Below are positions 15,371 to 21,748 of a stretch of 64,000 bases of DNA, piece after piece; within the stretch, counting starts at the first letter, position 1; every line of letters starts with the position of its first letter. The stretch is from Pseudothermotoga elfii DSM 9442 = NBRC 107921 (GTDB taxonomy: Bacteria > Thermotogota > Thermotogae > Thermotogales > DSM-5069). The translations under genes and the position numbers were made by a program. Under the pieces are notes generated by a model. The model had not been told where the DNA came from. It searched no databases and worked only from the letters and a program-made list of their open reading frames with translations. The DNA is taken from NCBI RefSeq assembly GCF_000504085.1, contig NC_022792.1, positions 2,012,001 through 2,076,000 of the forward strand, in the 5' to 3' direction.

Positions 15371-15405
15371 AAAATAAAAAATCGGTAGCAAAAGTCTCTA
15401 CCGAT
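15371..15405 (-). terminator. Riboswitch-controlled intrinsic terminator before purE
   Basis: On the minus strand an 8-bp stem (ATCGGTAG / CTACCGAT) with a 9-base loop is followed by a T-rich tract (TTTTTATTTT), ending 13 bases before the purE ATG. The 5' arm and loop (CGGTAGAGACTT, 15392-15403) are perfectly complementary to 15447-15458 of the purine aptamer, so the terminator and that alternative pairing are mutually exclusive. Confidence 0.85.
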
Positions 15406-15415
15406 AAAAGATAAG

Positions 15416-15489
15416 GCCCTTGTAGCCAGGACAGTTTACGGCTGTCCGGTAGAGACTTCCGAGCCCTATTCTCGGAATTATACAAGGGC
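15416..15489 (-). promoter_or_regulatory. Purine riboswitch, guanine class
   Basis: The minus strand folds into the purine aptamer. P1 pairs GCCCTTG (15489-15483) with CAAGGGC (15422-15416). J1/2 reads TATAAT. The P2 hairpin starts TCCGAG. J2/3 reads GTCTCTACC. P3 pairs GGACAG with CTGTCC. J3/1 reads GGCTA. The base equivalent to position 74 of the xpt aptamer is C (in GGC TAC), which in this family specifies guanine/hypoxanthine rather than adenine. With the downstream terminator this should be an OFF switch for the whole pur operon. A short hairpin (ATTCCCC/GGGGAAT, 15490-15509) precedes the aptamer. Confidence 0.9.
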
Positions 15490-15527
15490 ATTCCCCGTGG
15501 GAGGGGAATATTCACTTGTACATTCTG

Positions 15528-17703: not shown

Positions 17704-18261
17704 TCATCTGCTACCGGGTTTAAATAACGGAATACCTTCTTTACACAGTGGACAGCTATCGGGTTCGTAAATTGGTAGCTGCAATCTTATCAAAGAATAA
17801 AACGGAACATTGAATGGCAACGGTTTAACAGATCGATCTACGATGCTTGCTACGCAACATAGCTGACCCTGGCATTCTTCAACAATTTGCGCAACCTCCA
17901 TTACTGAGCCACCAGTGGTGGTAACATCTTCAACAATAACTACTCTGTCTCCTTTTTCGATCTTAAAATCCCTTCTCAACTTCATTGTTCCACTCTCTCT
18001 CTCTGCAAAAATAGCCTTCACTTTTAAAGCGCGCGCGACAACATACGAAAGTATCACCCCGCCAATAGCTGGACCTATTATTACATCCGGATTATAATGT
18101 TTTACCTTTTCTGCGATCATCTCACCTATCTGGTCGCCGAAATCTGGATTTTCGAAAAGTTTTGCACACTGTATATACTTTGAAGAATGTTTCCCTGAAG
18201 ACAATAAAAAGTGCCCTTCAAGTAATGCCCCCGTTTTTCTAAGAATCTCAAGCATAGACAA
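17704..18261 (-). CDS. pyrE: Orotate phosphoribosyltransferase
   Basis: 185 residues. HFLLSSGKHSSKYIQ at the N-terminus, PAIGGVILSYVVA and the PRPP motif VVIVEDVTTTGGSV identify it. It transfers ribose phosphate from PRPP to orotate, giving OMP. The C-terminus contains CPLCKEGIP, a Cys pair found in a subset of bacterial PyrE proteins. Last gene of the pyr operon; start overlaps pyrF by 14 bases. Confidence 0.93.
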   Translation of the reverse strand: MSMLEILRKTGALLEGHFLLSSGKHSSKYIQCAKLFENPDFGDQIGEMIAEKVKHYNPDVIIGPAIGGVILSYVVARALKVKAIFAERESGTMKLRRDFKIEKGDRVVIVEDVTTTGGSVMEVAQIVEECQGQLCCVASIVDRSVKPLPFNVPFYSLIRLQLPIYEPDSCPLCKEGIPLFKPGSR

Positions 18262-18856
18262 TCCTCCTTATTCTTTCCATAGCTTCTGATGGATCTACAC
18301 TTCTGTAGACTTCTCTCCCTATTACAGCATAATCCGCAACTTGCAAAATATCTTCAAGATTAACCACATCTCTTTGATCATCCGCCTGTCTGAGCATTCT
18401 GATCCCTGCAACGAGTATTTTTGCAGGTATCTGCTTTCTCAATTTCATTGCCCACTTACCGGGTAAAACAAATGAACAACCAAGGATCTTTATAGAGTTT
18501 ATCTGGTCAAGATAATCCTCCAATTCTCCCTCGACAGAAGTTAACTTAACAACTGCAAACACGATCTTATCAGTACTTTCAAGTGCGGCTTTCAAACTGT
18601 CTACACCTGCTGCGGCATGAACTGTAAAGCCAACGATACATGGATGATCCCAGGATCTTATAGATCGTGCCACAGTAGAAGGAATATCAGCAAATTTCAA
18701 ATCGAGTATTGCTTTAAGATTTCTTTTTTCAAGCTCACCCAGAACTTGTTTTCCGCTGCACGCAAGGTTGTGACCAACTTTGACATAATCAAAACTTCCA
18801 TATCTGTCAATAAATTCAAATGGGTCTTCCATATCTAAACTTAAAACTGGTATCAC
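18248..18856 (-). CDS. pyrF: Orotidine-5'-phosphate decarboxylase
   Basis: 202 residues. The DxKxxD catalytic array is present as DLKFADIP, with an earlier VKVGHNL lysine and a C-terminal VIGREVYRS phosphate-binding segment. It decarboxylates OMP to UMP. The ATG overlaps the pyrD stop (ATGA-type). Confidence 0.93.
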   Translation of the reverse strand: MIPVLSLDMEDPFEFIDRYGSFDYVKVGHNLACSGKQVLGELEKRNLKAILDLKFADIPSTVARSIRSWDHPCIVGFTVHAAAGVDSLKAALESTDKIVFAVVKLTSVEGELEDYLDQINSIKILGCSFVLPGKWAMKLRKQIPAKILVAGIRMLRQADDQRDVVNLEDILQVADYAVIGREVYRSVDPSEAMERIRRIVYA

Positions 18857-19683
18857 TTTAACTCCCTCCTCGAAATATGTTTGGCTATTTTTGATACGAT
18901 TTTTGGATCTTTGAAGATGGCGGTTCCAATGCTTACGGCATCTGCCCCTGCTTTTATAAAATCATCCGCATCCTCTTCATTCATGATGCCACCGCCTCCT
19001 ATCACATAAAGATCGCTCACCCTATTTTTAACCTCATAAACCGCTCTCAAAGCTACCGGCTTTAGAACCGGACCGGAAAGTCCTCCTTTGATAATCTTTT
19101 TACCGATAATGTATAGAGAACGAATAGTATTTATCAAACTCAATCCCTGCCAGCCGCACTTTTTCAAAATTTCTGCCGCTGCTTCAACAAAAATTCCCTC
19201 TATTCCGATTTTTGCTATGAGAAAGCCATTAAGTTCTCTTCGAATAGACAACAATAAATTCTCCAGACCATGGATATCAGAAAGTAAACCTAGTCCACCT
19301 TTCGATACATTAGGGCATGAAAGATTAAATTCTATGGCGATAAACTTTTTTTCGAATGGCTTAATTTTTTTTGCAATCTGGAGCATTTGATCAACATCAT
19401 CACCAGAGAAACTTGCTATCACCTTTGTTTTTGCGAAAAGTTCCTCAAATTCTCCGCTGGAAAGTTGTTGTAGAAATTTTTCTAAACCGACATTTTCTAA
19501 ACCTATCGAGTTGATCAAGTAATTTTCTGTGGCAAAGAGTCTTGGCGGTGGATTGCCTTTTTTCGGAAAAAATGTTATGGTTTTGAGTGTATATGCACCT
19601 ATATATTCGGGATCTATCAATTTCAGATATTCGCCCATACCTCCAGTGCCGGATGCAATAATCAGTGGAATTTTTAAATGCAT
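18853..19683 (-). CDS. pyrD: Dihydroorotate dehydrogenase, class 1B catalytic subunit
   Basis: 276 residues, FMN TIM barrel. The active-site base is Cys123 in NLSCPNVSKGG; Cys at this position is typical of class 1 enzymes. IIASGTGG and GGGGIMNEEDA (FMN phosphate site) are also present. With PyrK next door it should be the NAD-dependent heterotetramer oxidising dihydroorotate to orotate. It overlaps pyrK by 10 bases. Confidence 0.92.
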   Translation of the reverse strand: MHLKIPLIIASGTGGMGEYLKLIDPEYIGAYTLKTITFFPKKGNPPPRLFATENYLINSIGLENVGLEKFLQQLSSGEFEELFAKTKVIASFSGDDVDQMLQIAKKIKPFEKKFIAIEFNLSCPNVSKGGLGLLSDIHGLENLLLSIRRELNGFLIAKIGIEGIFVEAAAEILKKCGWQGLSLINTIRSLYIIGKKIIKGGLSGPVLKPVALRAVYEVKNRVSDLYVIGGGGIMNEEDADDFIKAGADAVSIGTAIFKDPKIVSKIAKHISRRELK

Positions 19684-20324
19684 AACAAATCACCCCTGAA
19701 AACTGGGCCATCGACGCAAACATGTTTGATACCATCCCTTGTCTCTACAGCGCAACCCTTACAGGCACCTATGCCGCAAGCCATATACTCGTTAAGTGAT
19801 AGAAAAACCTCACCCCTGTCTTTAAGCAATTCATAGGAAACTTTCTCCATACCTTCAGAACCAACTATTAAATACCAGTCATATCCGTTCAATGATTTCA
19901 GCAATTCGGTAAATTGCTCATCGCCTATAACTACCTTAAAAGGCAATTCGACAAATGGTTTTTTCAGCGAACCTACAAAAACCTCACCTAAAAGCCTCTG
20001 CTGTAAATCAAAGGCCATGGCTACACATGCTAAGGAAACAATGATTGCGCCCCTACCAGATGGTTGGAACGGTCTGCCTAAGGGACCGTGAGCTCTGAGT
20101 ATCTTCTGTTTTGCAATGTACTCTGTGCCGGGGCCAACCACCTGTATCCCTATTGCAAGATCTCCTTTCCATCTTCCAAGGGCAAATGGCTTTCTGGTTA
20201 CTGAAGAATTCTCTATCATGATAAATTGCGTGGGCTCAAAATCAAGCTTTTCTTCAAAAGTAAATAAGTAAGAATCTTCACTGAGCCTCACCGTGTTCTT
20301 TTTAGTTAAGAAAAAATTCTCCAT
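19674..20324 (-). CDS. pyrK: Dihydroorotate dehydrogenase, electron-transfer subunit
   Basis: 216 residues. The N-terminal half is an FAD/NAD reductase-type domain (RKPFALGRW, RAHGPLGRPF). The C-terminus has the 2Fe-2S motif in CGIGACKGC with a further Cys in VCVDGPVF. It passes electrons from PyrD to NAD+. The NAD-binding half is short and diverged (IIVSLACVAMAF instead of the usual GGGxG(A/I)P-type loop), so the final acceptor is less certain than the subunit assignment. The gene overlaps pyrC by 23 bases. Confidence 0.88.
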   Translation of the reverse strand: MENFFLTKKNTVRLSEDSYLFTFEEKLDFEPTQFIMIENSSVTRKPFALGRWKGDLAIGIQVVGPGTEYIAKQKILRAHGPLGRPFQPSGRGAIIVSLACVAMAFDLQQRLLGEVFVGSLKKPFVELPFKVVIGDEQFTELLKSLNGYDWYLIVGSEGMEKVSYELLKDRGEVFLSLNEYMACGIGACKGCAVETRDGIKHVCVDGPVFRGDLLCI

Positions 20325-21417
20325 CCCAGTACACCCACTTTCCTTTCATTTTCACACCAACTATTTTTCCATTTAATTTCATTCCATCAAAAACACAGTT
20401 TCTGCCTTTACTGAAAAACTTGTTTGAATCAACAGTATAACGAGCATCCGGATCAATAAGGACTATATTATCAAGATCGAAATTAAGTCTCAGACCCATT
20501 AAATTTCCTGGAGCAATGGTCATTTTTTCTATAACTTTTTCAATGTTGCCTATAATCGTGTAAAAAGCGCTGAAAGCAATTTCTATGCCGCTTGTTCCGA
20601 AAGGAGCCCTTTCAAAATCGTCCGGTTTTTCCGGATGGGGTGCATGATCTGTTGCAAGCACATCAACAACATCATTCTCAATTGCTTTTATCAAAGTTTC
20701 TCTATCGAAATCATTGGCAAAAGGCGGGTTGACTTTGAAATTCGTATTTTTTATATCATGCATATTGAAAAACAAATGATGGGGGGTCACCTCACATGTA
20801 ATCTCTGCATATTTACGCAGATATATAATGGTCTCAATCGATCTTTGAGTACTAACGTGCTGGATATGAAACCTTTTAAAACCATATTCTAATCCAAGCA
20901 TGACATTTCTAAATATAGATATTGCCTCATTCGACACAGGACGAGTCTTATTACTCAAATTCGTTCCATCATAAAAAATCCCATCCAATTCGTGCAGTTG
21001 ACTGTGATCAAGTAAAAGATATGGCTTTTTATTTTTAAAAGCATTGAGAATTCTTCTGGTATCGTATTCAAAACCATCATTTGAATAACACAGAATCTTT
21101 CTTCCATCTGGATGAAGTTCTCCAAAGATAGAACATGCCCAGTAAAAGTCAACAATTTTATCTCTTGCAAGTTCTAAATGTTCGTGAAAAATCTGGTATG
21201 TTTCGATTGAAGGTAAAGTATTCGGCTGTATCAGGACCCTTCCAAAACCGCCAGCTATAGCTGCTTTTTGAAGCGAGGAATAATCTTCCTGACCATTCAA
21301 CCTCACATGCGTGTGGATGTCAAAAAATGTCGGACAGGCTATAAGACCCCGGGTCTTTACAGGCGTTATTATATCTACTTCATGCCATAGTTTCTTGAAT
21401 GGATCATAAGCTTTCAA
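20302..21417 (-). CDS. pyrC: Dihydroorotase
   Basis: 371 residues, amidohydrolase fold. FFDIHTHVRLNGQED carries the HxH metal ligands and the substrate Arg, IQPNT is the substrate-binding Asn, HIQHVST supplies a His, and ATDHAPHP holds the catalytic Asp. The usual first-shell Lys appears to be absent, as in several class I enzymes with a different bridging ligand. It cyclises carbamoyl-aspartate. The start is a TTG at 21417 with GAGGTGA upstream, inside the end of the leader ORF. No pyrB or carAB is in the window. Confidence 0.9.
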   Translation of the reverse strand: MKAYDPFKKLWHEVDIITPVKTRGLIACPTFFDIHTHVRLNGQEDYSSLQKAAIAGGFGRVLIQPNTLPSIETYQIFHEHLELARDKIVDFYWACSIFGELHPDGRKILCYSNDGFEYDTRRILNAFKNKKPYLLLDHSQLHELDGIFYDGTNLSNKTRPVSNEAISIFRNVMLGLEYGFKRFHIQHVSTQRSIETIIYLRKYAEITCEVTPHHLFFNMHDIKNTNFKVNPPFANDFDRETLIKAIENDVVDVLATDHAPHPEKPDDFERAPFGTSGIEIAFSAFYTIIGNIEKVIEKMTIAPGNLMGLRLNFDLDNIVLIDPDARYTVDSNKFFSKGRNCVFDGMKLNGKIVGVKMKGKWVYWDGEFFLN

Positions 21418-21535
21418 TATCGCTCACCTCACATTTTTTGCAAAATAAAAGGGGCTTAAAGCCCCTTTCAATAAAAACAACAATACCTTTATATAGATCA
21501 AAAATATTCATTTTTTTGAGATTGAAAAAAAACAT
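21404..21535 (-). CDS. Leader peptide ORF of the pyr operon (pyrL-like)
   Basis: A 43-codon ORF with an ATG at 21535 and a strong Shine-Dalgarno, AAAGGAGAG, eight bases upstream. It opens with Phe codons inside an uninterrupted run of eight T (21532-21525), continues through more U-rich codons, reads straight through the attenuator hairpin, and stops 14 bases inside pyrC. The encoded peptide has a CKKC near its end. The arrangement matches the Escherichia coli pyrBI leader, where translation closely behind a polymerase pausing at U-rich sequence (low UTP) prevents terminator folding. The role is inferred from layout only. Confidence 0.7.
   Translation of the reverse strand: MFFFNLKKMNIFDLYKGIVVFIERGFKPLLFCKKCEVSDIESL
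21437..21468 (-). terminator. Attenuator-type terminator within the pyr leader ORF
   Basis: On the minus strand AAAGGGGCTTTAAGCCCCTTT forms an 8-10 bp stem followed by TATTTTG. It lies about 67 bases after the leader ATG and 31 bases before the pyrC start. A ribosome translating the leader would sit on the hairpin and block it. Confidence 0.8.
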
Positions 21536-21570
21536 ATTAACCGCTCTCCTTTTAATTCTCAAGAAGAAAC

Positions 21571-21578
21571 TTTATCAC
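21571..21578 (-). promoter_or_regulatory. Probable pyr operon promoter
   Basis: The minus strand has TGTGATAAAG: an extended -10 of the form TGn-GATAAA, 36 bases upstream of the leader ATG. The predicted start near 21563 gives a 5' UTR of about 28 bases containing the leader Shine-Dalgarno. No clear -35. Upstream lie two copies of TGATAATTT (21616-21624 and 21631-21639 on the opposite strand) of unknown meaning. Confidence 0.4.
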
Positions 21579-21748
21579 ATTTCAAAAACTGTACTATTAC
21601 CTGAAAATAACATACAAATTATCAAATGGTAAATTATCATGAATCAACAGATAATCAGTAAATAATAATTGTTTCATTCGTTAACGAGAAGAATTTATTT
21701 AAAAATTAGAGTTCAATAAGAAGATAATTGATTGGTTTTGGTAAGTTG

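Follow-up and report, generated by a model that had tools for sequence, protein, structure and literature searches.

A leader open reading frame running through the terminator of the pyr operon in Pseudothermotoga elfii: a candidate for pyrBI-type attenuation in the Thermotogota

The pyrimidine biosynthesis (pyr) operon of Pseudothermotoga elfii DSM 9442, encoded on the minus strand of the 64,000-nt stretch of DNA analysed here (the window), is preceded by a short open reading frame (ORF) that traverses an intrinsic terminator and ends inside the first gene. The best-supported interpretation is that this leader functions like that of pyrBI in Escherichia coli, and would thus represent a known mechanism in a new phylum. 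The anatomy of the leader, its conservation among relatives and the missing PyrR box are read directly from the sequences; on these grounds the operon is probably controlled by ribosome-coupled, PyrR-independent attenuation of the E. coli pyrBI type. That UTP is sensed via pausing of the polymerase appears likely, at a clearly lower level of confidence, and the scheme as a whole (pyrBI-kind attenuation, UTP-dependent pausing, PyrR not acting on the leader) is one that we favor with moderate confidence.

Anatomy of the pyr leader

The first gene of the operon is pyrC, encoding dihydroorotase (20302-21417; NCBIfam NF006840, 652.9 bits, above the cut-off), followed on the minus strand by a pyrK-like gene for the dihydroorotate dehydrogenase electron transfer subunit (19674-20324; NCBIfam matches below the cut-off), pyrD (18853-19683; NCBIfam NF005574, 209.9 bits, below the cut-off), pyrF (18248-18856; TIGR01740, 136.5 bits, above the cut-off) and pyrE (17704-18261; TIGR01367, 244.7 bits, above the cut-off). 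The window also contains an ordinary purine riboswitch (15403-15505, minus strand). All leader elements described below lie on the minus strand as well. The putative -10 region of the inferred promoter (21569-21576, GATAAAGT) has counterparts at the matching place in three relatives of the g1 group (L011, L012 and L015), namely the -10-like segments TGATAAAAT, TGATAGAAT and TGATAAAGT. It is followed by the Shine-Dalgarno (SD) sequence of the leader ORF (21544-21552, AAAGGAGAG), whose pairing energy of -8.7 kcal/mol is the best among all starts 5' of the terminator. The ORF itself comprises 43 codons (21404-21535, MFFFNLKKMNIFDLYKGIVVFIERGFKPLLFCKKCEVSDIESL), with the ATG at 21535 and a TGA that ends at 21404, and it contains a run of eight T residues directly 3' of the ATG (21525-21532), a TGAATA element that recurs among the pyr leaders of the family (21505-21510) and a U-rich stretch (21470-21485, TATTGTTGTTTTTATT), the candidate UTP-sensitive pause region, located just 5' of the terminator. 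The latter (21442-21468, AAAGGGGCTTTAAGCCCCTTTTATTTT) is a typical intrinsic terminator and putative attenuator, with a hairpin core GGGGC-TTTAA-GCCCC (21465-21451) and the U tail TTTTATTTT. Having passed through it, the ORF stops 14 bases inside pyrC, the start codon of which is a TTG at 21417, while the pyrC SD (GAGGTGA) is located within the leader ORF. The description of these elements in the earlier note, from the strong SD and the T8 run next to the ATG to the passage through the terminator and the 14-base overlap with pyrC, is correct in every detail by coordinates. Because the intergenic region is devoid of a same-strand gene upstream, the hairpin can be assigned to the leader, and because the upstream neighbor is divergent, it can act on pyr transcripts only.

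From this arrangement we infer that the leader is translated, that the terminator is active, that transcription and translation are coupled and that UTP is the signal. The transcript would begin approximately 20-30 nt 5' of the leader ATG and carry an efficiently initiated ORF that overlaps the terminator. With the leading ribosome close to the RNA polymerase, the 5' arm of the hairpin would be covered and the polymerase would continue into pyrC; if the polymerase outruns the ribosome, the hairpin would form and transcription would end. Low levels of pyrimidine nucleotides are predicted to make the polymerase pause in the U-rich stretch before the hairpin, allowing the ribosome to catch up. 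Ribosomes that complete the leader ORF would do so within pyrC, and for this reason some may be passed on to that gene as well. PyrR would act elsewhere, its single recognized site being in the uracil permease mRNA.

Leaders across the Thermotogota

Taken by itself, the P. elfii leader ORF is not significant, as 18% of dinucleotide shuffles also leave it without a stop as far as the hairpin, and therefore the leaders in front of whichever gene opens the pyr operon (pyrC, pyrB or pyrR) were gathered across the Thermotogota. In each leader the start codon was picked by SD pairing energy only, and an ORF was considered open if it extended to within 12 nt of the terminator; one leader was counted per genus and gene, with the Fervidobacterium-like leaders that carry PyrR boxes left out. 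The genus names used here for the relatives (Pseudothermotoga, Fervidobacterium, Thermosipho, Thermotoga) are our own presumed assignments. ORFs open into the terminator were found in 16 of the 20 genus-level leaders, compared to 4.05 expected from the shuffles (P = 9e-10, an approximate value, because genus groups are not fully independent). The result was 14 of 18 (P = 8e-8) after dropping two debatable leaders, and 13 of 16 (P = 2e-8) before the pyrR-first leaders, which joined the set after that result, were added. In the g4 relatives the ORF passes two tandem terminators and overlaps the start codon of pyrB, and in the f9 genomes its end overlaps the start of pyrR. The SD-based test was failed by the g1 pyrB leaders (which by eye possess open ORFs with a weak SD or none), the pyrC leader of G034, the leaders of G048 and G060 and the purine-riboswitch leader of G051, as well as by several Fervidobacterium-like leaders, whose true start is outside the scanned stretch.

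The position and openness of the leader ORF are retained in the relatives; its sequence is not, and the leader peptides differ between genera. In close pairs the substitutions are distributed over codon positions as 6/3/8, with no third-position bias and no sign of selection at the peptide level. Taken together, the lack of peptide conservation and of third-position bias suggests that it is the act of translation that is conserved rather than the peptide. The comparison of leaders proposed in the earlier note thus yielded a mixed answer: the layout of the SD-chosen ORF is maintained while the sequence drifts, as anticipated, but the T8 run is absent in every relative and appears specific to this species. 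The proposed logic of a leader ORF that reads through the terminator, on the other hand, is borne out by a layout conserved across the phylum, including genomes without pyrR. Among five pyrC leaders the terminator is the sole conserved structure, with no conserved competing RNA structure or antiterminator beyond it, which argues against an antiterminator mechanism. In two Thermotogota genomes from metagenomes, a purine riboswitch (RF00167) lies 5' of pyrB (L123:1128-1230 and L124:126-228), an arrangement that may place a pyrimidine gene under purine control. The carAB leader in the family revealed no attenuator by eye, and the sequence upstream of carA resembles the end of an upstream gene.

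Candidate sensors and PyrR

As a UTP sensor, the U-rich stretch that precedes the terminator is more plausible than the T8 run. In the pyrC leader, T accounts for 48% of the 44 nt 5' of the terminator, more than at any other of the 22 terminator-like sites in the window, and the pyrB leader of this genome likewise reaches 48% over 44 nt, in agreement with a UTP-sensitive pause. Across the phylum, the T content before the terminator is 0.35 vs 0.25 at control sites, all taken from the window (P = 3e-4); T/(A+T) is not significantly higher than in the window controls (P = 0.09). Leaders of g4, g37 and g17 are not U-rich, and in some relatives the stretch is weak or missing; strong U-richness is not a phylum-wide feature. 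As the ORF and the terminator are conserved even where this stretch is not (g4, g37), ribosome-coupled attenuation might be governed by a sensor other than UTP-limited elongation, such as control of leader initiation, start-site switching, pausing of the NusG type or the coupling status itself, which we consider rather unlikely, yet the strongest of the alternatives. This idea gains some weight from the T[GC]AATA element, which 13 of 15 family leaders carry at a distance of 12-42 nt 5' of the terminator (1.2 expected from shuffles, with related leaders counted separately), and from the DNA between the -10 region and the SD, which by eye is palindromic in some f8 leaders. However, a specific sensor element conserved throughout the phylum is lacking (among sequence motifs, TGAAT-like k-mers are mildly enriched, not convincingly across genera), and the strong U-richness of both leaders in the genome studied here speaks for UTP. 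Palindromes between the -10 region and the leader SD, which by eye pair with the SD (e.g. CCTCTTTGGCTTAAGGAGG), were observed in L162, L166, L219 and L223, and recall the start-site switching of E. coli pyrC and pyrD.

PyrR is encoded in this genome (G000:C1:470070-470588, 228.7 bits vs the cut-off of 138, with PyrR proteins as relatives in the PDB) and throughout the family (11 of 11 genomes), but scores above the cut-off in only 42 of the 103 genomes of the phylum. The protein complexed with UMP could therefore be envisaged to bind the leader RNA and to block translation of the leader ORF, allowing the terminator to form, particularly as Fervidobacterium-like genomes exhibit a canonical PyrR box (ATGGTTAATTTGGTCCAGCGAGGCC) on the ATG and first codons of the same ORF (box at the start region of the leader ORF in L033-L035, L037-L039, L171 and L173). 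We regard such control as improbable in P. elfii. A covariance model (R1) built from 26 Thermotogales PyrR boxes with clear covariation identified no box in any pyr leader of the family, the best scores being 10-13 bits (values up to 12.8 correspond to chance) vs 30-59 bits for true boxes, and on this basis PyrR control of the pyrC leader was rejected. RF00515 produced no match in the window, and a permissive run of Rfam on the leader returned chance matches only. The R1 model detected exactly one box per genome in the family, which in the seven genomes read (G000, G002, G004, G006, G008, G009 and G010) lies across the SD of a permease gene. In the genome of P. elfii (G000) this only box (L110:2047-2081, minus strand, i.e. 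G000:C1:663446-663480) overlaps the SD of a gene whose product matches uracil permease and passes the cut-off of the NCS2 family; the box is scored by RF00515 at 32.4 bits, vs a gathering cut-off of 54. Its position suggests translational repression of the permease gene. Moreover, the same leader layout is present in genomes without pyrR, belonging to several families, e.g. a pyrB leader ORF that enters the terminator was found in G033, G046, G049, G052, G054, G055, G080 and G100, none of which has a PyrR match. Of these, G033, G046 and G049 were scored explicitly as lacking one, whereas the other five do not appear among the listed matches. The earlier suggestion that the leader contains no PyrR-binding signature is thus confirmed by the covariance model, and the broader idea of control without a repressor protein in this phylum is supported as far as the box-less leader and the pyrR-less genomes are concerned, but not in its literal form, since PyrR is present throughout the family. 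PyrR boxes were also seen in a different context: in Thermosipho-like genomes and one Fervidobacterium-like genome (L090-L093, and L094 around 1503), purE is preceded by a leader ORF and a terminator, and the box overlaps the SD of that ORF, apparently a case of pyrimidine control of a purine operon.

UTP-dependent slippage of the polymerase on the T8 run could in principle shift the leader frame and would then favor termination, because the shifted frames stop before the terminator (with 6, 7, 9 or 10 U the ORF ends 32-42 nt before the hairpin core), but a run that is missing from all relatives makes this highly improbable. That the frame is open by coincidence, across a leader terminator of the ordinary kind, as the shuffles of this one sequence would permit, is scarcely credible given a layout conserved phylum-wide (P about 1e-9) and, in several genera, an ORF that extends over the start of the first gene.

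We tentatively propose, without regarding it as the likelier course of events, that PyrR-independent ribosome-coupled attenuation is ancestral and phylum-wide in the Thermotogota, and that PyrR acquired a site on this leader ORF in the Fervidobacterium-like lineage, while elsewhere it became confined to uracil uptake or was lost. If this is true, nature has switched between polymerase-ribosome coupling and an RNA-binding protein as the nucleotide sensor on one and the same leader. Attenuation of pyrBI is the textbook example known from the enterics, and how closely transcription and translation are coupled outside E. coli is debated. The occurrence of pyrBI anatomy throughout a thermophilic phylum that branches deeply, whether or not PyrR is present, suggests a coupling that may be tight enough there to serve as a sensor. 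Close relatives in which either PyrR or coupling alone may act on the same leader would make the evolution of such a switch directly testable.

Comparison with known attenuation systems

The family shares with the PyrR attenuation of Bacillus (RF00515) both PyrR and PyrR boxes, but the leader described here has no PyrR box, antiterminator or anti-antiterminator. For the pyr leader of Thermus ZO5, Van de Casteele and colleagues reportedly proposed in 1997 that a ribosome on the leader ORF blocks the terminator without any antiterminator, with PyrR as the sensor. The first part of that model resembles our proposal; the second does not, as the Pseudothermotoga leader is devoid of a PyrR box, and the Fervidobacterium-like relatives fit the Thermus model better. 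In the attenuator of E. coli pyrE, the upstream gene rph ends just 5' of the terminator. A comparable layout precedes pyrB in Thermotoga-like genomes without pyrR (g12/g13; L115-L117, L119, L121 and L125), where the stop codon of the upstream gene lies inside the terminator, and the gene upstream of Thermosipho-like pyrB likewise stops inside the terminator. The Pseudothermotoga pyrC leader differs from E. coli pyrE in having a dedicated ORF of its own.

In the literature searched, for the most part short of full texts, no description of pyrBI-type control in the Thermotogales was found. The closest counterpart of the leader is the E. coli pyrBI attenuator with its pyrL leader peptide, worked out by Turnbough, Roland and colleagues (described in PMC3641672 and PMC5021804). 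Measured alongside, pyrL proved to share this geometry, being a 44-codon ORF with a T5 run followed by the terminator and a stop 3 nt before pyrB. The Pseudothermotoga system differs in that the ORF overlaps the first gene, which is pyrC or pyrB, that the U-rich segment is not universal among the relatives and that the g4 relatives possess tandem terminators. In common with pyrBI, an SD-bearing short ORF near the 5' end of the transcript passes the terminator towards the first pyr gene, and a U-rich segment is located 5' of the intrinsic terminator in the pyrC as well as the pyrB leader of P. elfii.
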